DNA from: Aurantimonadaceae bacterium
Lineage (GTDB): Bacteria; Pseudomonadota; Alphaproteobacteria; Rhizobiales; Rhizobiaceae
DNA: 64,000 bases
Direction of reading: 5' to 3'
NCBI GenBank assembly: GCA_947474855.1
Contig: CANJKV010000001.1
Coordinates: forward strand, 45,622 to 109,621
In this document: positions 23,386 through 37,492 of the stretch, in pieces
Layout of the letters: every line of letters begins with the position of its first letter
Numbering within the stretch: the stretch's first letter is position 1
Position numbers and translations under genes: made by a program
The notes under the pieces: generated by a model
Told to the model about the DNA's origin: nothing
The model's input: the letters and a program-made list of their open reading frames with translations, nothing else
The model's database searches: none

Positions 23386-23772
23386 TCAGCGTTCCTGATG
23401 GTCTGGCACTTCGAGGACGAGCGGCTCAAGGGCCCGCAGAATGTCCTCCTCCCGGAAGGGCTTGGCGATGAAGCCCAGGGGCTCCCAGGCTGCGGCAATC
23501 GCGCGGAGGCGGTTGTCGACGTTGCCGGACACGAAGAGGGAGCCGACACCATGCTCCTCCCTCAGCCGCCGTGCGACATCCACGCCGTCGTGGCTGCCGG
23601 CGATGTTGTAGTCCATGATCGCGACGTCGAGACGTTTCCTGGAGGCGATCTCCATGGCCTCGCTCATCCGCGTCGCGATGCCGGCGACCTCGTGATCCGC
23701 ATCCTCGATGATGCTTTGAAGATCCATCGCGATCAACGGCTCGTCCTCGACGATCAACACGCATAGGCTCAT
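23386..23772 (-). CDS. Single-domain response regulator (receiver only)
   Basis: MSLCVLIVEDEPLIAMDLQSIIEDADHEV...LDVAIMDYNIAGSHDG...FIAKPFREEDI; no output domain. Confidence 0.9.
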   Translation of the reverse strand: MSLCVLIVEDEPLIAMDLQSIIEDADHEVAGIATRMSEAMEIASRKRLDVAIMDYNIAGSHDGVDVARRLREEHGVGSLFVSGNVDNRLRAIAAAWEPLGFIAKPFREEDILRALEPLVLEVPDHQER

Positions 23773-23990
23773 TGCTGCAGGCTCCTTCGAGCCGCAAACA
23801 CACCGCGAGGCCGGAAGGATGCGGTGAATAGGCGTTGAACCTGTGGACGGCGACGGGTGACGGTAGACCGGCCCCCATCGATGAGCCTCGGCTGATCGCG
23901 ATCGCGACCCCAGCCCCCGATCGCCCGGCGCATCCCCCGCCGATCCGCGCGGACCGGCGAGCCGCACCCGCGCGGTACGGGAGAGCCGGA

Positions 23991-25187
23991 CTATCGCCTG
24001 GCGGGCCTCAGGCGGATGAGGTCGACGTCGTCGCTCGACATCGGTCCGTCGCCACCTCCGGCCGACCGGCCGCGAATCCCGACCGTGGACCGATCGACGG
24101 CCTCCAAAAACCGGGTCCGCGTGAGATCACGCCCGCTCTCGGCCAGGCCGTCCCGCACGAGGCTTGCGAGCAGGTCTGCAAGTTCGTCGCGACTGGCGAA
24201 GGGAGGAGCCGGCCTCACGAGAAGGGTTTCGGCAGGCGCTTCGGCGAGGCGCTCGAGATCGCTGGGCGTTTTCACCGCGAAAATCGACACGATGAGGCTG
24301 GTGCCGGCGAGGTCCGCCTCGGGAAGCGCCAGGATCGCGGCGAGGTCGCGGGCCGACGTCGCGTGACGTTCCACGCGGTCACCGGCATCCCGAAGCGTAC
24401 CGGCATTCCGCGAGATGAAGTCGGCAAGGGCACTCTCGCCGGGGGTGAGCCACACGACGTCGGGCAGCCGCTCGCGATCTCGCGACGGCAGGTGGGCCGG
24501 ACCGACCACCGGGATGCCTTGGGCGACGAGCGCGTCGAGGAGCCCGGTGCCGAAGGCCGTTCCCGGCTCGCTGCCGAGAACCGCGAAGACGTCGTCGAAC
24601 GCTCTGGAGGCCGGATCGGCGAGGATCGAGACGAATTCGGCGCGCCGCCCGTTCACGTCGGGCGAACCGAGGGCGCGCCAGGCCCGCTCCAGGGACAGGC
24701 GAAGGGCCTCTGCTTCCTCGCGGTTGCCGGGCTGCGCCGCGACGGCGAAGCGGACCCGCCCCGCTTCGACCCCGCGTCGCTCGTCCGCCTCGAGCTGCGA
24801 CAGAAAGAGCCATAGGGCATCGATCTGCGCCTCTTCGAGCCCATAGCGCGGCATGGCGAGGGCCAGAGGCCGTCCGTCGCTGCGAAGCCCGTCGCGGAGC
24901 GCGCGGGCGAAGAGCGCGGGGTCGTAGGCGGGACGCGTGGGCGCGGGCTCGCGCAGCGTTCGGCCGTCCACCGGCGGGATCACCGCCGAGCCCGCGACCG
25001 CCCCCGACGCGTCGCGGCCATGGCAGCCCGAGCATCGAAGCCCGGTCTGCGGCACGCCGGCGATCGTCGCAGCTCGGTCGGAGGCTCGCATGCCCCGGAA
25101 GATGGCGCTCCCGCTCTCCCCGCCGATCGCAGGACCGATCGAGGCCAGCACACCGAAAAGGCTGACGACGAGCAGACAGTGCCTCAC
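23991..25187 (-). CDS. c-type cytochrome fused to a periplasmic-binding-protein-like domain
   Basis: GTG start overlapping the upstream SCO1 stop (GTGA); GVPQTGLRCSGCHGRDASG (CxxCH) and AMPRYGLEEAQIDALWLFL; about 250-residue C-terminal part resembles ABC substrate-binding domains. Confidence 0.75.
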   Translation of the reverse strand: MRHCLLVVSLFGVLASIGPAIGGESGSAIFRGMRASDRAATIAGVPQTGLRCSGCHGRDASGAVAGSAVIPPVDGRTLREPAPTRPAYDPALFARALRDGLRSDGRPLALAMPRYGLEEAQIDALWLFLSQLEADERRGVEAGRVRFAVAAQPGNREEAEALRLSLERAWRALGSPDVNGRRAEFVSILADPASRAFDDVFAVLGSEPGTAFGTGLLDALVAQGIPVVGPAHLPSRDRERLPDVVWLTPGESALADFISRNAGTLRDAGDRVERHATSARDLAAILALPEADLAGTSLIVSIFAVKTPSDLERLAEAPAETLLVRPAPPFASRDELADLLASLVRDGLAESGRDLTRTRFLEAVDRSTVGIRGRSAGGGDGPMSSDDVDLIRLRPARR

Positions 25188-25762
25188 GGCGGAGATCGGA
25201 CCCAGTCCAGGAGTTCCTGCGGTTCGACGAAGCCGTCGCGGATCGAGGGCTCGCGGTCCCCGGGAGCCCAGCGCACGAAGCGAACGGAGTGATCCTCGCC
25301 GCTGGACGGGCGCATGGCGAGCCCGTCCAGAACGGCGAAGACGTCGGCGGGATGGCCGGTGAGGAAGATCCGCGAGGGGTCGAGATAACGAGCCCGCTCG
25401 GCTTGGAGGCGTTCCGGCGTGTCGTCGAGCGGGTTCAGCGTCAGCGTCGCCAGGGTGATGCCCTCGAGGCCTTCCGTCCGTGCCTTGCGGGCGACGGCGT
25501 CCATGATGGCGTCGCTGGGCGGACACTGGGCGAGGCAGCCGGTCAGGGTGAAGGACAGGAGCAGCGTCCCCTCGCCCGCCAGATCGTCCGGGAAGCGAAG
25601 GGTCCGCCCGTCCGACGTCACGAGCTCGACCCCGACGGTCCGTGGCCCCGGCGCGCTGCTTTCGACGCTCAAGTCGATCGCGCGGGCGACGCCCGGGGCC
25701 GAAAAAAGCAAGGCCGCGGCGGCGGCGCGGAGCATCCATCGCAGGGTGTCGCAAGCGGTCAT
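25184..25762 (-). CDS. SCO1/SenC family copper chaperone-like protein
   Basis: GTLLLSFTLTGCLAQCPPSDAIMDAV (CxxxCP), TLNPLDDTPERLQ, EDHSVRFVRWAPG. Confidence 0.85.
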   Translation of the reverse strand: MTACDTLRWMLRAAAAALLFSAPGVARAIDLSVESSAPGPRTVGVELVTSDGRTLRFPDDLAGEGTLLLSFTLTGCLAQCPPSDAIMDAVARKARTEGLEGITLATLTLNPLDDTPERLQAERARYLDPSRIFLTGHPADVFAVLDGLAMRPSSGEDHSVRFVRWAPGDREPSIRDGFVEPQELLDWVRSPP

Positions 25763-27600
25763 GGCGTCGTTCTCCGAACGTCGAAGACGGCAGGCGCGAT
25801 CTCGATGCCCGGCGCTTCGACCGACAGCGAGAAGCGCCCGGGCCGGCGCGCGAGCTCTACGACGAAGGTCCGGTCCGGACCCGGGCGGGCCAGAAGGCGC
25901 TTGGGCGCGCCGAAGCCGAGATCATGGAGCCGGAGCGCGAGCGGCCCCTCGGCAAGGCCTGGCGGACGGTTGCGGATCGCCAGGACCACCACCGCCTTGC
26001 CGCCCGGCTCGGGCGGCGGCGTCATCGAGACGACGCGAAGGGAGGCCGGCGGCAACTCCTCGGCGCCCGGTCCCTCCACGAGGAAGCCGGCGCAGCCGGT
26101 GGTTCCTCCAGGCCCCGTGGTCGCCACGAGCTGGTAGGATCCGCCGCGCGGAAGCGTCACCAACGCCGAGAACCGGCCGGGCGCGATTTCGGCGAAGCCG
26201 CGATCGAAGAGCGCGAGCTCGTCGATCGTCCGTCCCGCAACGCGGATGGTGGACGTCATCGCGTTGGAGATGCCGCCGCCTGCCGCGATGCGATAGGCGA
26301 CGGGACTGCCGGGCGGCAGGAAGAGCGCCATGGGCTCGGGATCGAGAGGCACGAGGATCCCGCTCCCGGCATCCGGCGCCGTGAGCGGGCCGGGAACGTC
26401 CACCCGTCGAAGGAAGGGCGGCGCACCGCCCCCGAGCGGCGCGAGATCGAGGACGCTCACGAGACGGGAATCGGCGTGCGCGAGAACGAGGGAGGTGCCG
26501 GCGCGGGCGCTCGCCGTCACCGGGCCGGGAAGCGGCAAACGCGCTGCGATGCGCGAGAACGTCAGATCGACCACAGCGAGATCGGGGCGCGCCCCGTCGC
26601 TCCAGGCGAGGGCATAGCGGCGATTGCCGGCTTCGCCGAGCGCCAGGCCGGAGGGCGAAAACGGAAGCGGGAGGCGCGCCGCGTCGGCGGGGGCGTCGAG
26701 CCAGCGAAGTCGCAGCTCGGGCGCATCCGGGACGGCCGACACCAGCGCTACCCCATCGGCCGCGACCGCTGGCCCGAGGCTCGCCGGAGGCAGGCGAACG
26801 GGCGCAGACCCGAGATCGCGCAGGATCGCCGCCGACCCGTCGGCAGCCGCGACGATCGCGCCGGCGCCGGACGCCGTCATGCGGATCGGACCGGGACCGA
26901 GGTTTTCGCGGCGCAGGAGCGTGCCGTCTCCATTCAGAAGCGCGATCGATCCGGCCGCGTTTTCGGTGACGATCAGCCCGTCGCCGCCGAGCGCGAGAAG
27001 CCCGCTGGGGTTGCGGAGATTCTCGGCGACGAGCCGACGACCGCCGGCGGGAAGATCGACCGCCTCGATCCGCCCGGCTGCACGATCGAGAAGAAATGCG
27101 CGCGGTACCGTTCCGCCGAGCGCGAAGCCGTCCGCCGCGCCGTCGATTTGCGTGACGCTGATCGTGTTGGCGACGCCGAGGCGATGGGCGAGATCGGTCA
27201 CCACGAGCCGTGCTCGACCGTCTTCGCGAGCGAGGCCGACGAGATAGCGCCCGTCGAGCGGAAAGTCGTCCGGCGACAGCGTTCCCGAGGCGCGCAGCAT
27301 GTGGGCGGCCGCCCCGCAGCTCGGCGCGCCCGGCTCCAGCCGCCGGACGAAGGCGCGCGGCCGGAGCCCTGTCGCCGGCCGACCCGAGGTCGCGTCCGAG
27401 AAGGAGACGGTGACCGATAGCACCTGTCCGGCCATGAGGGACGGATCGCCGGCAGGCCTGCCTGCGGAGAAGGGCTCGATCGTCATGGCCGTTCGCAGGC
27501 CCGGAGCCGACGGGACATCCTGGGCTGCGGCCGTCGCGAGCGCCGCCGCGAGGAGGCCGAGGGCGGCGCCGACGCGGCCGGCCCGGTTCAGGGCTTGCAC
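25759..27600 (-). CDS. Secreted beta-propeller/cytochrome-d1-like protein of the multicopper oxidase operon
   Basis: GTG start overlapping the MCO stop; signal-like AALGLLAAALATAAAQ; NHL-like repeats (NLRNPSGLLALGGDGLIVTENAAGSIALLNGDG). Confidence 0.65.
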   Translation of the reverse strand: MQALNRAGRVGAALGLLAAALATAAAQDVPSAPGLRTAMTIEPFSAGRPAGDPSLMAGQVLSVTVSFSDATSGRPATGLRPRAFVRRLEPGAPSCGAAAHMLRASGTLSPDDFPLDGRYLVGLAREDGRARLVVTDLAHRLGVANTISVTQIDGAADGFALGGTVPRAFLLDRAAGRIEAVDLPAGGRRLVAENLRNPSGLLALGGDGLIVTENAAGSIALLNGDGTLLRRENLGPGPIRMTASGAGAIVAAADGSAAILRDLGSAPVRLPPASLGPAVAADGVALVSAVPDAPELRLRWLDAPADAARLPLPFSPSGLALGEAGNRRYALAWSDGARPDLAVVDLTFSRIAARLPLPGPVTASARAGTSLVLAHADSRLVSVLDLAPLGGGAPPFLRRVDVPGPLTAPDAGSGILVPLDPEPMALFLPPGSPVAYRIAAGGGISNAMTSTIRVAGRTIDELALFDRGFAEIAPGRFSALVTLPRGGSYQLVATTGPGGTTGCAGFLVEGPGAEELPPASLRVVSMTPPPEPGGKAVVVLAIRNRPPGLAEGPLALRLHDLGFGAPKRLLARPGPDRTFVVELARRPGRFSLSVEAPGIEIAPAVFDVRRTTP

Positions 27601-30600
27601 GGCGTCGCCTCCCCCGGAGCGTTCGGCGAAACCGCGAGATAGCCCCACACGCCGGCCGCGAAGATGTGCTGCGGCCCGTCGCGCCACAGGTATTCCCCCG
27701 AAGCCTGCGGCGCGCAGCCGAAGGCCGTCATCGCCTTGCCGGGACCGAGCAGCGCCGAATGCCCGGATCCGAAGCCGGGCATGAGGTCGTCATAGCCGAA
27801 GCCCGTCGACACGAAGGCCCGTTGGCGCGCCCGTCCCTGCGGCAGGGCGATGCGCACGGCGATCTCCTCCTGCGGCCGCGCCGCGATCTCGGGGCTGGCG
27901 AGCGGCCGCGTCTGCGGCGAGGCGAAGCGCCGGGCGAGGAAGTCGGGCGCGAACTCGACGGCGTTGAGGTCGTCCCCGTCGCCGCGATCGGGATAGCCGC
28001 GCGTGCCGAAGGCCGCGTCGGCTCCCCCCGTTCCGGCGATGCGCAGCCGGAACGGCGCGGAGCGATAATCGACACCCTGCTCGCCGCGATCGTAGGAGTC
28101 GTCGCAGACGACGCAGTCCGGAAGCGGCCGCCCGCTCCAGCCGGGCAGCGCGGCCACCGCGGAGGCGCGACGCCAGAGGTTGAGGCCGTCCTGCCAGAGA
28201 AGCACCCGCTCGCGCAGGATCGCCTCCGGCACGTGCGTCGCGTCTCCGGGATCGCCGACGACCGTGACGGCGGGCACCGGCACGAGCGCTGCCGGGGCGT
28301 GGCGCCAGGTGAAGCGCTCCGCCGAGCTTCCGGTCGGCGTCGATCCCTTCGGCTCGACCACCAGCGTTCCCGACAAGCCGTGGACGCCGTGCGAGACGAT
28401 GTCGCCGAGGGAGCGGATCGGCAGAGCGCCGAAGGCGTAGGGAATGCTCACGAAGACGCGGTCCGCCCGTCCGGGTTCGGCGAAGAAGGCGTCGAGCGCC
28501 CGCTGCACGAAACCCGTCTGCTCTTCGGGGATGTCGTAGACGCAAAGAACCAGACCGAAGACGGTGATCTGCTTCTGCGTGGCGCATCCGTTCTCCTCGC
28601 TGCTGCGCAGGACGACTCTCATCGCCTCCCCCGCGCCGAGCCCGGCCGCGGCCCGCAGCGCGGCGTCGAGGCCGGAGCCCGAACCGGGGTCGAGAAGTTG
28701 GTCCAGCCGGTTCTCGCTCGCCCAGGCGAAGCCGGCGAAATAGCGCGTGACGGTCCAGAACGGCCGCGACGAGCCGCCCGGCGGCACGGCGCGGGCCTCG
28801 TTGACGCCGACGGCCTGGAGTCCGCCGGGCCTCAGCATCGGGGTGGTCAGCGGAAGCGACAAGGCCACGTGCCGCGAAGGCACGAGTTCGAAGGAACCGC
28901 CCGTCTGCCGCCGGTCCACGTTGAGGGGAACGATCGGCGGCATCAGCGCGTCGCCCGGCTGATCCCAGATCGCTCCGGTCGCGCTCAACGCGTTGATCAG
29001 CAGCAGGTCGGCGCAGTCGCCCGCTGCCACGCGGAGGACGAACGGCATGCCGAAGATCGTGGCGCGCTTAGCGGCCTGCGTCGCCGCGTCGTCGCCCGGC
29101 CGGATCGCCGCGTCGAGCTTGCGGCGGATGATGGCGCGGATCGCGCGGGCATCGAGTCCCGCGAGCGTCGCGTCTTGGCGGTTGGCGAAGGCCTCGTAGA
29201 GCCCCATGCCGGACCCGCCGTCGTAGTAGGGGGCGAGATTCAGGGGAGCCCTGTCGAGGCCAAGGTCGGCGAGCGACAGGGGCACGAGCATCAATCCGTC
29301 GGGATCGAACAGCCCGTTCTGGCGCGGCCCCGCACCATAGATCGTGCCGGGAACGGCGAAGTCGTCCTTGGGAAGCACCTCGCCCGCCCGCACCGCGGCC
29401 GCGATCACCGGAACGCGGTCACCATCGAGGGGACACCACGCCTTGAGGCTCGACGTTTCGGCCGGCACGGTCGGTGCGATCGTCGGCGTGGCTGGAACCG
29501 GCGCGCCGCTCGTGGTCGCCCTCCACTGCCGGCGCAGGACCGGAAGCGGCACGAGGCGCCGTCCCACCGCGCTCCCGGCCGCCACCGGATCGAGGCAGCG
29601 CTCGAACTCGTCGCCCGTTCTGGGCGGCGTCGACAGGCACGTCGCCGCGTCGGCCTCGCCCGGCCCGTCATAGGTGCGGATCAGGCCCCAGGCCCCGTTC
29701 CATAGGGCGTCGGTCGAGCCGAAGTGATAGAGGAGATCGAGCGAAGGCCGGCCGTCCGGAACGCTCGCGACGAGGCTGCTGGCGCCTCTACCGTCGTTCG
29801 AGCCGTTCGACCCGATGGCCGGCGCGAAGGATGCCCCCTGGTTGTTGACGCCGCTGGCAACGAGCGAGCCGAACTCGAAATGCTCGGAAATGCCGACCTC
29901 GTGCGCGGCGACGAAGCCGAGGGGGTTGTCGCAGCCTGCGACGAAGGTCTCCATGTCGTTCCAGAACGGCTGGTTCTCGTAGCCGCCGACCGACCAGCCG
30001 GGGAACTCGCCGGGCCGTCCGCTCCGGCCGAAAGGCGATTCGAGGCAGGCGGTGCTGCGCGAGCGCGGACCGCTCCGCTCCGACTCGTGGCGCTCCGCCG
30101 GAAAGGGCTGATCGACGTTGCGGCGGATGGTGCGCCCCTCGACCGTGAAGATGTGCTGGACCTCCTGCGCACCCTGGATCAGGCGGACGACGAGGCGCTC
30201 GCCGGACAGGGCCTCCAGGACGGGCGTGCAGGGATCGCCGTGGAGGTCGGAGCGGAAGATGTTGGCCATGTCGCCCGCCTCGCCGCCGCGCTGGCGCACG
30301 ATGCTGCGGTTGTCGCTCGGCGAGAGGCTCGGCGCGCCGGCCGGGCCGCAGGGGCTCGCGGCGAAGGGTGGCGGCAGGCCGTTCCGGTCGCCTCCCACGC
30401 GAAGCGGGATCGGCTCGCCCCGATAGTTGACGAGGTAGGGATCGTGGTGATCGGCCGAGATCGCCTCGGGACGTGCCGGCGGCGCGATCGGGCGGCCGTG
30501 CTCGCGCCGGATTTCGCGCCAGCGCTCGGCGAGTTCGGTGACGCGGGCTTCGCTCGGCGACAGCGGGGTACCCCGCAGGGCCAGATCGAGGGCAGGCGCC

Positions 30601-33600
30601 GCCTCGCCGTTGGCGACGTCGTCCGGCGAGGGGGACGTCGCAGGATCGAGGGCCTCGGCCACCAGCCGGTCGAGACCGCGAAGATCGCCGGCCGGTTGCG
30701 GCACCGGCAGGGGCGCGTTGGTCTCGCGCCTGCCGTCGTAGAGTAGCGCGAAGTCGGCGATGGCGAGGGCATATTCGCGGGCATCGACCTGCAGGGGATC
30801 GCCGGCGACCTGCTTGGCCGGGTCGCCGAGCCTCGGCCGGTCCCCCGGCTGCTCCAGCGCGTTGTCCTTGTAGGTGAAGACGTTTGCACGCGCGCCGACG
30901 AGGCGTTCGGACTCTTCGGTAGCGAGCGTCGGCACCGGGGGCGACGCGCCCTGCGCGGTCGCCGGGCCGGCGACGCAGAGCTCGGGCGGCGCGGCCTCCT
31001 CGCCCGGTCGCGGCAGCGGGCAGACGACGTGCGTCGACGGCTCGATCAGGAGCGCGGAGTAGAACCCGTGCTGCTGGATGTTGGAGGGTCCGAAGTGATC
31101 GTGGGTGAACACGGTACGCAAGGTGCGGTCGGCGACCTGCGCTCCCTCGCCCGCGCGCCCGACGAGGCCCTCGTAGCTGAGGATCGGGTCGGCGAACCAG
31201 CGCTGCACGGTGGTCTGGAAATACTGGATGTTCTCCGGCAGGAACCGGTCCAGCTTGTGGACCGTCTCGATCATCCGGGCGGCGCATTGCGCGTCGGTGC
31301 GCTCGGCGATGTCGTCGATGGAGGACGGATCCTCCCCGTCCCGCTTCGTCGCCCGGCCGCGCGAGTGGCAGATCCGGGCCAGGACTTCCTGCGGCGAGAA
31401 GGTGCCATCCTCGTAGTTGAAGCCGTTGCCCGAGCCGTCCGACGAGGTGACGTCGAACTTCACGAGGTGGATATGCTGGCCGATCGTGTCGGTCGGAACC
31501 TTCATCTGGAAGTCGTCGAGCTTCAGCGCCTTGGCCGTTTCGTTCGTGTGCTGGACCTCGATGCACTCTCCGGAAAAGGCGCGGAAGTAGAAGGGTTCGG
31601 CGGTGGCGGTGGAGCGCCCCTTGGTGGCACCGGCCTGCGAAGACAGGACGTTGATCCGTCCCTGCGGATCGTGCCAGCCGGCGCGGTTGACCACGAGATC
31701 GACGTCGACTGCCGAGACCTTGAAGCGGCGGAAACCCAGAAGCCCCGGATCGGGCACCATCCTGACCTCGGCCGCGCGCAGCGGATCGGCGATCTCGGCG
31801 AAGGCTTGCGGATCTCGGGCCCAGGAACCCGTCGCGGCGTCGAAGCGGCGGAAGGGACTGCCTGCCATCACGCTCGGCGCGCCGCACGGATCGGCGAAGG
31901 GAGCACCGGGCGCGGGCGGCGCGCCGTTCACCGGAAAGAAGGCGCGGGTCGGCGGCATCGCGGGCGGGCTCGGGCGGGGCCGCAGAGGCGCAGAGCCGGC
32001 AGCCGCGACGGGCGCGGGCATCGCTGCCAAAACGCCGGCGGTCGGGACGTCGTAGGCACCCGCGTTGGCGTCGGGCGCGGCCACGACCGCGCCGTGGGCA
32101 TCGCGCAGCTTCACCGCCGCACCGTCGTGGTGGAAGCGCATGGCGGATCGTTCGAGGCGGGTGCCGGCATGGGGCAGCAGTTCCAGCCGCAGCTCGCCGA
32201 ACTCCGACGTCATGTCCCCGAGCGCCAGCATGCGCTCGATCGGCACCACGGGGTCTTCGCCCGCCTCGAAGCGCTCGCGCTGCTCGTCGGTAGCCGCGCC
32301 CGGGAGGGACCGCCCCGCCGTCACGACGTGGCGCGGAAGCCCGCCGTCGAGGCGCGGCCGGCCGAGCGCCGCGGCGAGGTTCGGCTCCAGCGCGTTCGCC
32401 GCCTCGGCCATGTCGAGCGGCGGCTGCGGCGTGCGATGGCCGGGCACGCCGGGAATATAGAACGGATAGCCCGGCATGGCCGTGCCGGGACCCTCGGTGT
32501 CGGCATAGGTCGGCAGGAGCGGTAGGCCGTTCGCGGGCAGCGGGACGAGCCCGGGGATTGGCGTTCCCAAATCCTGACGTGCGGCGCCGGGCTCGCGCCA
32601 TTCGCCCTGCGGGCCGACGCTGCCTTCCCGCCGCGGCGTCGTCGCGCCCGCCAGGATCTCGGCCTGCGTCTGCTTGCCGCGCGGCTCGACGGAAAGCGAC
32701 GGCTCGACCTGCCCGTCCGGCAGGAGGCGCGTGCCGTCCTCCAGAACGTCGTGGACGCGCCAGAGCGCCCACATGCCTTGCGCGAAGTGCGGGTAGAGGT
32801 GGCAATGGAAGATCGCGTCGCCCGGCGTGCGGTTGCGATTGCCCGTGCCGAGCGATGCCCAGTAGCCCTTCGGTTCGGGGAGGCTGCCGTCCGGCTGGCG
32901 CGGCGCGAAGCGGTCGAGCCCGCCCTGGTAGATCCTGTAGGTCAGACCCTGCTGCGGGGCGATGGTCTGGCTGTCGAGATAGGCCCCCCGGCCGGAGTCG
33001 TTGCCCGCGAACCATTGATGGCTGTGCAGGTGGAAGACGTGGGTTTCCTTGCCCGCGTGGAGGTTGCGAAAGACCACCTTGTCGTTGAGGTAGGAGTGGT
33101 GGACGTTCGAGGGATCGTCGGGAAAGACTTCGAGAAGCGCCGGGTCGCCGTTCGCCCAGCTTTCCAGGAAGAACTCCTCGTATAGGCATTCGGCGCACTG
33201 TCCGGCTGGGCCGATGCCCAGCCGGTTGGCCAGCACGGCCGCGCCGACCCCGCTTGAGCCGTAGTTGATCGCGAAACCGTCCCGCACGCCGGCGAGCTGA
33301 CCGTAGCGGCCGAGCGCCTTCAGGTCGTCGGCGTAGAAGGTCTTCAGCTCGTCGTGGAAGATGACGGTGAACTCGCGAAAGGGTGCGGCCGCTTCGCGCG
33401 CCAGGCGCCGTTCGCGCAAGCTCGCCTCCGTCCGGGCCACGGGAAGCGGCTCGGCCTCAGTCTCCGGAACGACGATGGCGTTGAGGTCGGAATGAACGAT
33501 CTCAAAGACCGGCGCGGTCTCGCCGGCGTCGATGCAGGGCCGGAGCATGGCGAGAACCGGAACGTCCTGCACGCCGCAGTCGAAGCCTCGGCCGGCCCGC

Positions 33601-34625
33601 GCCGCGTCGCGGCTGTCTGGCACAGCCGCGAAGTAGTCAACCGTGCCTTGCCGCGCGTGGCGCACCGGCCCTTCCGATTTTGGCCAGACGCGATCGAAGG
33701 CGGCGGGCGAGACCTGGCTGCGGAAGGCCTGCGCACCGGCCCGCTCGACGATGAGCGCGCCGAAGAGGCCATGGATCAGCGAGCCGCCGTCCGCCTCTCC
33801 GCCGGCCGGCGCGGCATAGCTCGACACGAGATGCGTGCCTTCGGTCGGCAGGCGCCAGCGGCAGGTGAAGCTTGCGCCGGGTGCGACCGCGCCGGTGCCG
33901 ACGCAGGCCGGATGGATCTCGCTCCCGACAGGCACCGGTTCGAGGCCGGGAATGACGAAGGACAGGTTGCGCGTCAGCGGCCAATCCGTCCCGTAGCCGT
34001 TGGCGGCCACGGCCTCGTCGCCGTCCGCCTCGACCGTCCGACACTGCTCCGCGAAGGCGGCGCCCACCTCGTCACGCAGGGCGACGGAGCCTGCGCCCGC
34101 GTCCTCGCAGAAGCCCAGTCCAGGCTCGCCGTCGGTTGCGGAAGGCGGCAGCGCGGTGCTTGTCAGCCCCGGCTGGTCGGGCCGCAGGAGGTTGGTGACC
34201 GTCACTTCGAGCGTGTCGCCGACATTGGCGCGCAGGACCAGCGGACGCGGACGCAAGCAGTCGCGAAGCCGGACCTCGCCGGGTTCGAGCGGCCCGGTTC
34301 CGCCTTCGGCGCCGGTCATCTCGCCGCAGGCCTCAGCGTCGGGCCCCTCGCCGCTTCCGGCATCGAGGGCCGACACGTTGCGCTTGAGCGCGAAGATCAT
34401 GCCGTAGGGATTGAAGGAGCCGAAGCGGTTGTAGACGATGAGGTGATCGAGGGCGACGACGTCGGCGTGGACGATGCGGCCCACCTCCTGAGCACCCGCC
34501 TCGCCGGCCGAAAGGCCGCCGCTCGCCGTGAGCAGGAGCGCCGAGAGCGCCATGGCGATCCGCGGCGGCCGGGCCGAACCCGATCGGCACCGCTGCGACG
34601 GAGCGAGACGAACAACGTCGAGCAT
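27588..34625 (-). CDS. Giant (2345 aa) secreted multicopper oxidase, putative MnxG/McoA/MofA-type Mn(II) oxidase
   Basis: Signal peptide MALSALLLTASGGLSAGEAGAQ; four MCO copper motifs: ETHVFHLHSHQW (HxxHxH), FHCHLYPHFAQGM (HCHxxxHxxxxM), GQHIHLVKFD (HxH), THDHFGPSNIQQHGFYSALLIEP (HxH). Confidence 0.85.
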   Translation of the reverse strand: MLDVVRLAPSQRCRSGSARPPRIAMALSALLLTASGGLSAGEAGAQEVGRIVHADVVALDHLIVYNRFGSFNPYGMIFALKRNVSALDAGSGEGPDAEACGEMTGAEGGTGPLEPGEVRLRDCLRPRPLVLRANVGDTLEVTVTNLLRPDQPGLTSTALPPSATDGEPGLGFCEDAGAGSVALRDEVGAAFAEQCRTVEADGDEAVAANGYGTDWPLTRNLSFVIPGLEPVPVGSEIHPACVGTGAVAPGASFTCRWRLPTEGTHLVSSYAAPAGGEADGGSLIHGLFGALIVERAGAQAFRSQVSPAAFDRVWPKSEGPVRHARQGTVDYFAAVPDSRDAARAGRGFDCGVQDVPVLAMLRPCIDAGETAPVFEIVHSDLNAIVVPETEAEPLPVARTEASLRERRLAREAAAPFREFTVIFHDELKTFYADDLKALGRYGQLAGVRDGFAINYGSSGVGAAVLANRLGIGPAGQCAECLYEEFFLESWANGDPALLEVFPDDPSNVHHSYLNDKVVFRNLHAGKETHVFHLHSHQWFAGNDSGRGAYLDSQTIAPQQGLTYRIYQGGLDRFAPRQPDGSLPEPKGYWASLGTGNRNRTPGDAIFHCHLYPHFAQGMWALWRVHDVLEDGTRLLPDGQVEPSLSVEPRGKQTQAEILAGATTPRREGSVGPQGEWREPGAARQDLGTPIPGLVPLPANGLPLLPTYADTEGPGTAMPGYPFYIPGVPGHRTPQPPLDMAEAANALEPNLAAALGRPRLDGGLPRHVVTAGRSLPGAATDEQRERFEAGEDPVVPIERMLALGDMTSEFGELRLELLPHAGTRLERSAMRFHHDGAAVKLRDAHGAVVAAPDANAGAYDVPTAGVLAAMPAPVAAAGSAPLRPRPSPPAMPPTRAFFPVNGAPPAPGAPFADPCGAPSVMAGSPFRRFDAATGSWARDPQAFAEIADPLRAAEVRMVPDPGLLGFRRFKVSAVDVDLVVNRAGWHDPQGRINVLSSQAGATKGRSTATAEPFYFRAFSGECIEVQHTNETAKALKLDDFQMKVPTDTIGQHIHLVKFDVTSSDGSGNGFNYEDGTFSPQEVLARICHSRGRATKRDGEDPSSIDDIAERTDAQCAARMIETVHKLDRFLPENIQYFQTTVQRWFADPILSYEGLVGRAGEGAQVADRTLRTVFTHDHFGPSNIQQHGFYSALLIEPSTHVVCPLPRPGEEAAPPELCVAGPATAQGASPPVPTLATEESERLVGARANVFTYKDNALEQPGDRPRLGDPAKQVAGDPLQVDAREYALAIADFALLYDGRRETNAPLPVPQPAGDLRGLDRLVAEALDPATSPSPDDVANGEAAPALDLALRGTPLSPSEARVTELAERWREIRREHGRPIAPPARPEAISADHHDPYLVNYRGEPIPLRVGGDRNGLPPPFAASPCGPAGAPSLSPSDNRSIVRQRGGEAGDMANIFRSDLHGDPCTPVLEALSGERLVVRLIQGAQEVQHIFTVEGRTIRRNVDQPFPAERHESERSGPRSRSTACLESPFGRSGRPGEFPGWSVGGYENQPFWNDMETFVAGCDNPLGFVAAHEVGISEHFEFGSLVASGVNNQGASFAPAIGSNGSNDGRGASSLVASVPDGRPSLDLLYHFGSTDALWNGAWGLIRTYDGPGEADAATCLSTPPRTGDEFERCLDPVAAGSAVGRRLVPLPVLRRQWRATTSGAPVPATPTIAPTVPAETSSLKAWCPLDGDRVPVIAAAVRAGEVLPKDDFAVPGTIYGAGPRQNGLFDPDGLMLVPLSLADLGLDRAPLNLAPYYDGGSGMGLYEAFANRQDATLAGLDARAIRAIIRRKLDAAIRPGDDAATQAAKRATIFGMPFVLRVAAGDCADLLLINALSATGAIWDQPGDALMPPIVPLNVDRRQTGGSFELVPSRHVALSLPLTTPMLRPGGLQAVGVNEARAVPPGGSSRPFWTVTRYFAGFAWASENRLDQLLDPGSGSGLDAALRAAAGLGAGEAMRVVLRSSEENGCATQKQITVFGLVLCVYDIPEEQTGFVQRALDAFFAEPGRADRVFVSIPYAFGALPIRSLGDIVSHGVHGLSGTLVVEPKGSTPTGSSAERFTWRHAPAALVPVPAVTVVGDPGDATHVPEAILRERVLLWQDGLNLWRRASAVAALPGWSGRPLPDCVVCDDSYDRGEQGVDYRSAPFRLRIAGTGGADAAFGTRGYPDRGDGDDLNAVEFAPDFLARRFASPQTRPLASPEIAARPQEEIAVRIALPQGRARQRAFVSTGFGYDDLMPGFGSGHSALLGPGKAMTAFGCAPQASGEYLWRDGPQHIFAAGVWGYLAVSPNAPGEATPCKP

Positions 34626-34934
34626 AGGCCCTCACACGGAGATCGTGCGTGCCATGCGGTGTCCGCCCCATTTGCCGAGGCGGCGCGCACAAGCTTCACG
34701 CACTGGACGACGTTAGGGAAGGCAAGTCCTTGATACTCGAGCAGATCGTGGAACGTCGACGCGATCCCGATCACGCTCGCAACAGACACTCAGACTCTGG
34801 CAACAACGTCCCGCGAAGCGGACACGACTCATCCGACCGGGCACGATCTACATGCTCATCATGCCTACTATACATAGAATTTATTTGGCATCAACATGCG
34901 CAGCGAGCATCGGCCGTCGACCGGAGACCGTAGG

Positions 34935-36704
34935 ATGGGTATTCTCGCGAGTGGACGCTATCGAGGCCAGTTCGATGGCGGGCAAACCATGATCCTGCGC
35001 TGCGAACGGGATGCCGCGAGCGGCGGACTGGCGCGGATCAGCGGCGACGTCGCGGAGCCCGACGCAGCGATCTACTCATTCGTATCGGACCCGCCCGGCA
35101 ACGCCGGCTTTCCATCCGAGGGGGCCGACGGATTCCTGCGGTTCTCGGCCGAAACGGTGAGCCGGACGGGCGCGAACGCTTTTCGCATCACGCTCGATCT
35201 GCTGCCGCGCGAGGCTGGGCAGGTCGACGTCAGGCTGGTCAGTCCCCTGGCCGTCATGAACGGCAGCCTGTCCTTCGTCGACAGCCTGTTCCGCAGCCTC
35301 GTCCTGCGCGTCGACGTCTGGCCCGGCGTGGTCCCGCGCGAGCCGGTCGACAACGGTTCCGAGTGCGGGCGCCAGATCGTGTCCGCCTTGGCCGCGGCAG
35401 GCATCGCGGCGACGATCGAGCCCGGGGTCGCGCCAGATCCCGCGGCGACGCCGCGGCGGATGGAGTTCCGCGACCTTCATGCCTGGCTGCGCAATCTCCC
35501 GCCGACGTCTCTCAGCAACGGCGACTTTTTCGTCAGCCTGCTACTCGGCAGCAGCCTGGCCGGGGGTACCGGCAAGCACACGCAAGGCATGATGTACGAG
35601 ACCTTCGGCGAGCGGGCTCGCCAGGGCGTCGCCGTCTTCCTCGACCACTCGGCCTTCGGAACGCCGAACGAGACCGTCTGGCACCGCGAGTTCGTCTTCT
35701 CCGTGCTGCACGAGATCGGGCACGCCCTGAACCTTCCCCATGCTTGGCTCGCCGAGCCTCCGGGACCATCCGCCCTGTCCTGGATGACCTATCCCGACCG
35801 ATATCCCGGCGGCATCGCCCCCTTCTGGACGGCCTTCGAGCCGGGCTGCTTCGGCGAGACCGAACTGCCCTACCTGCGTCACGCCTATCACTGCGACATC
35901 GCACCGGGGCAGAGCCACTTCGACGAGCGCGCTTGGCCCGGCTTCGTGCGGGGCGGCGGCAGCGACCTGACGAGCGCGCGCCGATCATCATCCGCCGGAT
36001 TGGCGATCGCGCCGCTGAAGCCGCACTACGCCCTGGGCGAGCCGATCTTCCTTCGCGCCGAAATCCGGAACACGGGCGCGCGGTGGCTGTCCTTCGTCGA
36101 CGCTCTCGACCCGAGCGACGGATGGCTCGACGTCGTCGTCACGACGCCGGACGGGAGCCGGCGCAGCTTCGTTCCACCAGCTCGCCTGTGTCAGACGCCA
36201 CGCCGCCGGCGCCTGGAGCCCGGTGCCTGCAAGCCGTTCGACGGCATCCTTCTCAGCTTCTCGCAGGACGGACCGCTGTTCGAGGAACCGGGACTCTACC
36301 GGATCGAGGCGCGCTTCGACGGACTGCAGAACGGGCCGCTTCTCGCCGCCACCGAGATTCGCATCCTGTACCCGACGCGAAACGAGGAGCTGTTCGCGCG
36401 GGCGCTGTTCGCCGACGCCGCTCTGTGCCGTGCCATCTGGCTGCGCCATCCCCTATCCGAGAAGCAGGCCTGGGCGGGCATGATGGACAAGCACGCACAC
36501 CTTCTGCCGACGGACGCCGACAACACCACGAGCGCCTATCTGCACTACGTCGCAGCTCAGGGCTGGCTGAAGCCGCACCGCGAGGGCGTCGACGGCCAGG
36601 ACTGCGGCATCAGCCGCGGCAAAGCCAAGGCGCACCTGCAGGCAGTCGAGCCGGCCAACCTTCCGCAGAGCGTCGGCCGATTGCGAGCGCGGCTCGCGCG
36701 GTGA
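34935..36704 (+). CDS. Uncharacterised protein with metzincin-like HExxH zinc protease motif
   Basis: EFVFSVLHEIGHALNLPHAW; about 589 aa; no obvious Sec signal peptide. Confidence 0.65.
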   Translation: MGILASGRYRGQFDGGQTMILRCERDAASGGLARISGDVAEPDAAIYSFVSDPPGNAGFPSEGADGFLRFSAETVSRTGANAFRITLDLLPREAGQVDVRLVSPLAVMNGSLSFVDSLFRSLVLRVDVWPGVVPREPVDNGSECGRQIVSALAAAGIAATIEPGVAPDPAATPRRMEFRDLHAWLRNLPPTSLSNGDFFVSLLLGSSLAGGTGKHTQGMMYETFGERARQGVAVFLDHSAFGTPNETVWHREFVFSVLHEIGHALNLPHAWLAEPPGPSALSWMTYPDRYPGGIAPFWTAFEPGCFGETELPYLRHAYHCDIAPGQSHFDERAWPGFVRGGGSDLTSARRSSSAGLAIAPLKPHYALGEPIFLRAEIRNTGARWLSFVDALDPSDGWLDVVVTTPDGSRRSFVPPARLCQTPRRRRLEPGACKPFDGILLSFSQDGPLFEEPGLYRIEARFDGLQNGPLLAATEIRILYPTRNEELFARALFADAALCRAIWLRHPLSEKQAWAGMMDKHAHLLPTDADNTTSAYLHYVAAQGWLKPHREGVDGQDCGISRGKAKAHLQAVEPANLPQSVGRLRARLAR

Positions 36705-36714
36705 CCGGGACGCC

Positions 36715-37335
36715 TCAACGACCGACGTGACAGCAGACTCGCGCGAGAGCGGCCCGGAGGTTCGCCAGGATGATCACGGCGCCGACAGCGGCGACCGTCA
36801 TCAGCATCTCGATCGAGAAGGGCGTGCCGTAGCGCGCCTCGGTGATCGCCCGCCGGGCGACGGGCACGAGGCGAATAGCCAGCGCGAGCAGGAAGGCGTC
36901 TCGCTCCATACCGGGCACGGCATGGCCGAAGACGTAGGCCGCGACGAGCGCGGCGCCGCAGGCGGCGGTCAGGCGCGCCTTGCGGGTCTTCCACCAGGCG
37001 GCTCCGCCTCCGTTTTCCGCGTGGGAATGCAGATGCCCGTGGGCGGACGCCCATTCGTTATGTCCGCGATGGTCACGGCCGACATGCGAGGCTGTTGCCG
37101 ATCCGGGTCCGACGGCGGCCGGCGCGATGCCGTAGCCGAGGTTCCTCACCTGCCGCTCCAGCGCGCCAGCATCGGGGGAGGAAACATGGGTGACCGTCAT
37201 CGTCTCCGTGGAGACCGAAACCGAGACGTCCTCCAGGCCGGGAAACAGTCTGACGGCCGTACCAACCTTCGCAGCGCAGGACGCGCAATCCATGCGGGAT
37301 AGATGGTAGCGGGAACGATCGAGAGCGGCGCTCAT
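36715..37335 (-). pseudogene. 5' remnant of a heavy-metal-translocating P-type ATPase (truncated)
   Basis: HMA domain YHLSRMDCASCAAKVGTAV, His-rich linker, first TM segments and ARYGTPFSIEMLMTVAAVGAVII, then homology stops with a short tail LANLRAALARVCCHVGR*; no phosphorylation (DKTGT) or ATP-binding domain nearby. Confidence 0.8.
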
Positions 37336-37492
37336 GGGACAAGTCCTCGTTTGTCCCGCTATCGCCACGTCCTCCAGCGACTAGAGGATCAAGCGCTTGG
37401 TCGATCACGGCTCCTTGAACATCTCGCCGGCTCGAGCAGCCTCGCCCGGTCGGCTCGCCGCGGCCTCGTCGGCGTGAAGGAAGCAGCCGGTC

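Follow-up and report, generated by a model that had tools for sequence, protein, structure and literature searches.

A giant MnxG-type multicopper oxidase operon, a candidate for Mn(II) oxidation, in an Aurantimonadaceae bacterium

Introduction

The closest described relative of the locus analyzed here is the mnxG operon of Pseudomonas putida GB-1 (PputGB1_2447 and the genes downstream), which comprises, in this order, mnxG and genes for a YVTN beta-propeller protein, two SCO1/SenC proteins, an ABC substrate-binding plus cytochrome c protein, and SurA (PMC11409713 Table 4). Our subject is a four-gene operon in a 64,000-nucleotide stretch of an Aurantimonadaceae genome (contig CANJKV010000001.1; this whole stretch, numbered 1–64,000, is hereafter called the window), which has gene order, homologous proteins and copper motifs in common with the P. 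putida operon and whose first gene encodes a multicopper oxidase (MCO) of 2345 residues, as compared to about 1940 residues in Pseudomonas. The system is of a known kind, the MnxG-type operon, with which P. putida converts dissolved manganese to mineral manganese oxides, here in a lineage that is experimentally new for it, and its structure is well supported.

Several other described systems share part of these features. Bacillus MnxG (MnxEFG, PDB code: 9bxa), 1227 residues long versus 2345 for the window MCO, is homologous to the latter in several cupredoxin stretches, and the HFHxHxHQW, HCHLYP, HxH and HDH motifs match; no MnxE- or MnxF-like gene is visible among the neighboring open reading frames (ORFs) of the window, no search aimed at MnxE/F having been made. 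Like the window operon, the mof operon of Leptothrix discophora combines a very large MCO, MofA, with a cytochrome c gene, but it also contains mofB, which codes for a MIP-type isomerase; the window operon yielded no MIP gene. The IoxA cluster of Iodidimonas likewise encodes a secreted MCO and SCO1 homologues; however, IoxA is a 62 kDa protein, the SCO1-type genes are three in number, and neither a propeller nor a cytochrome fusion is described there. Finally, large six-domain MCOs of the same family as the window MCO are found in Methylobacterium populi (2493 residues), Nitrosomonas europaea (1886 residues) and Roseovarius TM1035 (2681 residues). Since large MCOs of Proteobacteria, the longest of 2681 residues, were clustered as MnxG homologues already in 2013, according to the part of PMC3600357 consulted, neither the size of the window MCO nor its relationship with MnxG is new; that part of the paper treats neither the operon nor a flanking protease.

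Organization and conservation of the operon

The operon consists of four minus-strand ORFs of the window, which encode (i) the giant MnxG-type MCO (27588..34625; 2345 residues, with a signal peptide and copper motifs); (ii) an exported beta-propeller protein (25759..27600; 613 residues from a GTG at 27600, with two conserved cysteines); (iii) a SCO1/SenC copper-chaperone-type protein (25184..25762; 192 residues, with a CxxxC motif); and (iv) an exported mono-heme cytochrome c joined to a periplasmic-binding-protein-like domain (23991..25187; 398 residues from a GTG at 25187). Consecutive genes overlap by 13, 4 and 4 bases, each start overlapping the preceding stop, and all four proteins begin with a hydrophobic segment resembling a signal peptide. 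These ORF calls bear out in full the four minus-strand ORFs, their coordinates and their start/stop overlaps as given in a preliminary description of the window.

That description also proposed a synteny search for the four genes. We located the Pseudomonas loci with the NCBIfam MnxG model (NF041487), for which 79 of 250 genomes of this genus are above the equivalog cut-off. Homologues of all four window proteins, in the order observed in the window, are present at the Pseudomonas loci that exceed this cut-off, and the order MCO, propeller, SCO and cytochrome fusion is also found in 53 other loci from alpha-, beta- and gammaproteobacteria. Because the identical order recurs in 53 loci, the four-gene arrangement is not due to chance, and this synteny ties the propeller protein, the SCO protein and the cytochrome fusion to the oxidase across Proteobacteria. 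The arrangement differs in Leptothrix discophora and Rubrivivax pictus, where the MCO gene and the three partner genes are transcribed divergently. The distribution of the system is sporadic, with an NF041487 match in one of 61 genomes taken from across the family and in four of 399 taken from across the phylum, and the four-gene order is carried by plasmids in Methylobacterium, Paracoccus, Roseivivax, Shinella, Sphingobium and Roseomonas; together, the sporadic occurrence and the plasmid copies suggest horizontal spread of the system. Note that Jiella avicenniae has two contigs (loci L034 and L039) with apparently identical copies of the locus, which may reflect either a duplication or an assembly artefact.

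The giant oxidase and its relatives

The 2345-residue protein matches NF041487 in seven stretches (E = 3.5e-149), whereas its detection by Pfam is marginal (PF07731, E = 0.002). Its match in the PDB is Bacillus MnxG (9bxa, E = 2.9e-57, and 1.7e-111 with an eight-sequence profile). The type-1 and trinuclear copper ligand motifs of the MnxG-like MCO superfamily are present, namely HLHSHQW (residues 532–538), HCHLYPHFAQGM (residues 607–618), HIH (residues 1051–1053) and HDH (residues 1175–1177), and the copper-ligand residues of all four motifs are invariant in an alignment of eight proteins (A1). The Pseudomonas MnxG counterparts of these motifs are IFHLHGHQW, HCHFYPHFAQGMW, GQHIHLPKWD and THDHLGPS. 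To judge from its sequence, the window protein is a secreted giant MCO homologous to MnxG. The preliminary description also put forward a comparison with McoA and MofA: a MofA-like MCO of Leptothrix, identified by size and motif only, has HCHILGHEENDFM where the window MCO has HCHLYPHFAQGM, and McoA was not identified, as the MofA-like Leptothrix query gave no match in 16 Pseudomonas genomes, a search run with no positive control.

In a tree of 98 rows restricted to the conserved core, which was built by a quick procedure and has several long branches, so that its deep placements are tentative, the nearest relative of the window MCO is the protein of Antarcticirhabdus aurantiaca, another member of the Aurantimonadaceae (97% in the core and 92% in the homologue search). 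The next neighbors are proteins of Methylobacterium, Nitrobacter winogradskyi and other alphaproteobacteria. A branch of 1.81 substitutions per site splits the group containing the window and Pseudomonas proteins from the Bacillus, Microvirga and Rubrobacter proteins.

Partner proteins

The SCO1 protein of the operon matches PF02630 (SCO1/SenC, E = 9.8e-8), and its CxxxC motif is kept in the SCO protein of all 58 loci compared. As the genome contains two further SCO1 genes elsewhere, with stronger matches, the SCO protein of the operon looks dedicated to it. The cytochrome c domain of the fusion gives weak Pfam matches (E about 1e-3) together with a CxxCH motif, which is kept in the cytochrome of 56 loci out of 56; one CxxCH and one Met are invariant in 20 relatives of the fusion, two of which match Peripla_BP_6.

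The propeller protein of the window has no match in Pfam, and a PDB sequence search with it returned nothing significant. Its relatives match the Lactonase, YNCE, cytochrome d1 and YtkA families of Pfam, and its AlphaFold model (mean pLDDT 84.9) resembles propellers such as 1l0q and NirN/NirF, albeit with modest TM-scores. The two cysteines of the protein are invariant in 36 relatives. The preliminary description had suggested that the propeller protein and the cytochrome/binding-protein fusion may be new accessory factors. This view is not supported: both are already listed in the GB-1 mnxG operon (PMC11409713 Table 4), and homologues of both adjoin mnxG in the Pseudomonas genomes searched. 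Since the gene order is found in Pseudomonas and in 53 other loci, the propeller protein, the SCO protein and the cytochrome fusion are conserved operon members.

Function of the operon

As far as sequence comparison can tell, the function best supported for the window operon is Mn(II) oxidation. We consider it reasonably probable that the operon is an alphaproteobacterial member of the MnxG-type operons and that its MCO oxidizes Mn(II) to Mn(III/IV). According to the mechanism that we propose, the giant MCO would be exported via its predicted Sec signal, its copper loading would be helped by the SCO1 protein, and it would convert Mn(II) into Mn(III/IV) at the cell surface. Electrons would flow from the type-1 copper to the trinuclear center, for both of which the ligand motifs are present, and there O2 would be reduced to water. 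The propeller protein is probably a scaffold or an assembly helper for the oxidase. For the cytochrome c/binding-protein fusion, the probable roles are ligand sensing or delivery, or else electron exchange with either the oxidase or the respiratory chain.

In favor of this assignment are the matches of the MCO to NF041487 and 9bxa, the copper motifs that align with those of Pseudomonas MnxG, the shared and widely conserved gene order, the MopA-type protein encoded by the same genome, and a nearest relative from the family of the Mn oxidizer Aurantimonas manganoxydans. Five observations weigh against it. First, the window MCO scores 498 bits with NF041487, against an equivalog cut-off of 3100 bits and scores of 3795–3937 bits for full-length Pseudomonas members, so that it is not a strict Pseudomonas-type MnxG. 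Second, although inside the same large group of the tree, Pseudomonas MnxG is set apart by a long branch (1.68 substitutions per site). Third, the window operon has a single SCO gene, as compared to two in P. putida, and lacks the SurA gene. Fourth, Nitrosomonas, Nitrobacter, Nitrospira and methylotrophs, none of which is known to us as a Mn oxidizer, have relatives of the MCO. Fifth, SCO genes also accompany the iodide-oxidizing MCO. The interpretation in the preliminary description is partly upheld: its link with the large Mn-oxidizing MCOs is of the right kind, as the protein is homologous to MnxG and its operon is syntenic with that of P. putida, and the protein groups with Pseudomonas MnxG against the Bacillus type, but it stays below the equivalog cut-off and on a deep branch of its own.

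These observations bear on the main alternative, namely that the enzyme family and the operon are the same but that the physiological substrate in these alphaproteobacteria is one other than Mn(II). Candidates would be the ions Fe(II), Cu(I) and iodide, sulfur or nitrogen species, and phenolics; the MCO–SCO–cytochrome logic would stay unchanged, fed by another reductant. In favor of this alternative are the deep branching away from Pseudomonas MnxG, the widespread relatives in nitrifiers and methylotrophs, and the oxidation of iodide by an Iodidimonas MCO clustered with several SCO1 homologues. Nevertheless, the homologues with this operon that have been characterized all oxidize Mn(II), the copper motifs are nearly identical, and the same genome encodes a second class of Mn oxidase, of the MopA type (see below), which makes a substrate other than Mn(II) rather unlikely in our view. 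A role in copper tolerance, with a CueO-like periplasmic detoxification of Cu(I) and with the SCO1 protein and the adjacent HMA/P-type ATPase fragment (36715–37368) as metal-handling components, is highly improbable: the SCO1 protein and the nearby HMA-domain gene speak for it, but CueO-type oxidases are about 500 residues long, the HMA gene is incomplete and resembles Zn/Cd ATPases most, and the operon order matches that of mnxG and not that of a cop or cue locus.

A divergent protease gene next to the oxidase gene

On the other side of a 270-base intergenic region (34626..34895), a plus-strand gene (34896..36704) divergent from the MCO gene codes for a putative metzincin-like protease of 602 residues, which displays an HEIGHALNLPH motif and a downstream Met-turn-like WMTYP but no signal-peptide-like segment. 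The intergenic region contains one sigma-70-like match, on the MCO strand (34894–34867), which is about what chance would give. The HEIGHALNLPH core, in which Asn replaces the usual Gly, is conserved in six homologues, as is W-M. The protein matches no Pfam family, a PDB sequence search with it gave nothing significant, and its predicted model (pLDDT 60) is too poor for a fold search. Within its clade, this putative protease gene is found beside the MCO gene; that it belongs to the MCO system is something that we infer only.

Scoring the 32 loci that have a divergent ORF of coding-like codon composition beside the MCO gene, we found that this neighbor is a protease in 27 of them, with four unrelated types represented: 15 are trypsin-like (two of them beside a subtilase), five are caspase-like (C14) and seven, including that of the window, are metzincin-like with an HExxHxxxxxH motif. 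The 27 protease loci are the window and L001–L004, L007, L016–L019, L026, L028, L036, L041–L046, L048, L050, L052, L062, L065, L066, L072 and L092. The rate over all loci is lower than 27/32: upstream sequence suffices at about 46 loci with a long MCO, and those outside the scored set have no such divergent neighbor. Of the families on the opposite side of the operon, none of the first 25 out of 69 is found in more than two of 34 loci; single peptidases could be hidden among the others. No protease is found beside Pseudomonas mnxG, upstream of which a GspF-like type II secretion gene lies nearby instead, or at loci of the Nitrosomonas/Nitrospira/Sphingomonas type. In the literature, partially covered, no mention of these divergent proteases was found.

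A single syntenic site is thus occupied by proteases of four unrelated types, opposite a flank with no recurrent family, which makes chance hard to invoke. Yet the protease may lie outside the system, the linkage resulting from inherited hitch-hiking within each clade; we would put the chances of this explanation at even. Indeed, the metzincin, C14 and trypsin plus subtilase types each occupy one clade of the MCO tree and the trypsin/papain type two, leaving only about four independent associations, and the protease is missing from the Pseudomonas and Nitrosomonas/Nitrospira/Sphingomonas-type loci mentioned above. Moreover, most of the divergent proteases (the metzincin, trypsin/papain-like and caspase-like types) have no signal-peptide-like segment, whereas the oxidase is exported, which disfavors a simple periplasmic processing. 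More tentatively, and with considerable doubt, one may propose that in alphaproteobacterial MnxG-type loci the same divergent position was filled several times over by proteases of unrelated origin (metzincin, trypsin/papain fusion, trypsin with subtilisin, and caspase-like), recruited because the oxidase or its regulator requires a protease of its own for processing or quality control. The recurring divergent protease is a lead on the possible processing or control of the giant oxidase.

In Nitrosomonas, Nitrospira, Sphingomonas and similar loci (L037, L056, L058, L061, L063, L067, L073, L075, L076, L080, L081, L084–L086 and L089), a co-directional ORF of about 210–255 residues lies directly upstream of the MCO gene; a Pfam scan of two such ORFs gave no match.

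Genome context

The Aurantimonadaceae include Aurantimonas manganoxydans, a known Mn oxidizer. Outside the window contig, the genome analyzed here encodes a giant heme peroxidase of the MopA type (positions 1659–11885 of L200; genome G000, contig C19), a protein of 3408 residues with two animal-heme-peroxidase domains and 14 RTX stretches, whose gene is followed by a type-1-secretion ABC gene. This protein fits the published description of MopA-type Mn oxidases. The estimated contamination of the assembly is 4.4%, and the G+C content of the MopA-type contig agrees (0.69 versus 0.70). For Mn(II) oxidation in a family where the heme peroxidase MopA gets the credit, the window operon offers a candidate that can be tested, and a single genome with both enzyme classes, of the MnxG and MopA types, would make their contributions separable.

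The ORF at 36715–37368 (217 residues) consists of an HMA domain and only the start of a ZntA-like P-type ATPase and resembles a truncated pseudogene. Immediately downstream of the operon, the segment 18602–23967 contains genes for an HWE kinase, a PAS hybrid kinase and a lone receiver, the gene directly adjoining the operon (23386–23967) being that of a response regulator. These kinases and this regulator were considered as analogues of MnxS/MnxR and set aside in view of their domains (HWE/PAS hybrid kinases plus a receiver standing alone) and of their neighborhoods: the Antarcticirhabdus locus (L017), which is 92% identical, has the hybrid kinase in the same position, but this kinase is not a recurrent neighbor elsewhere.

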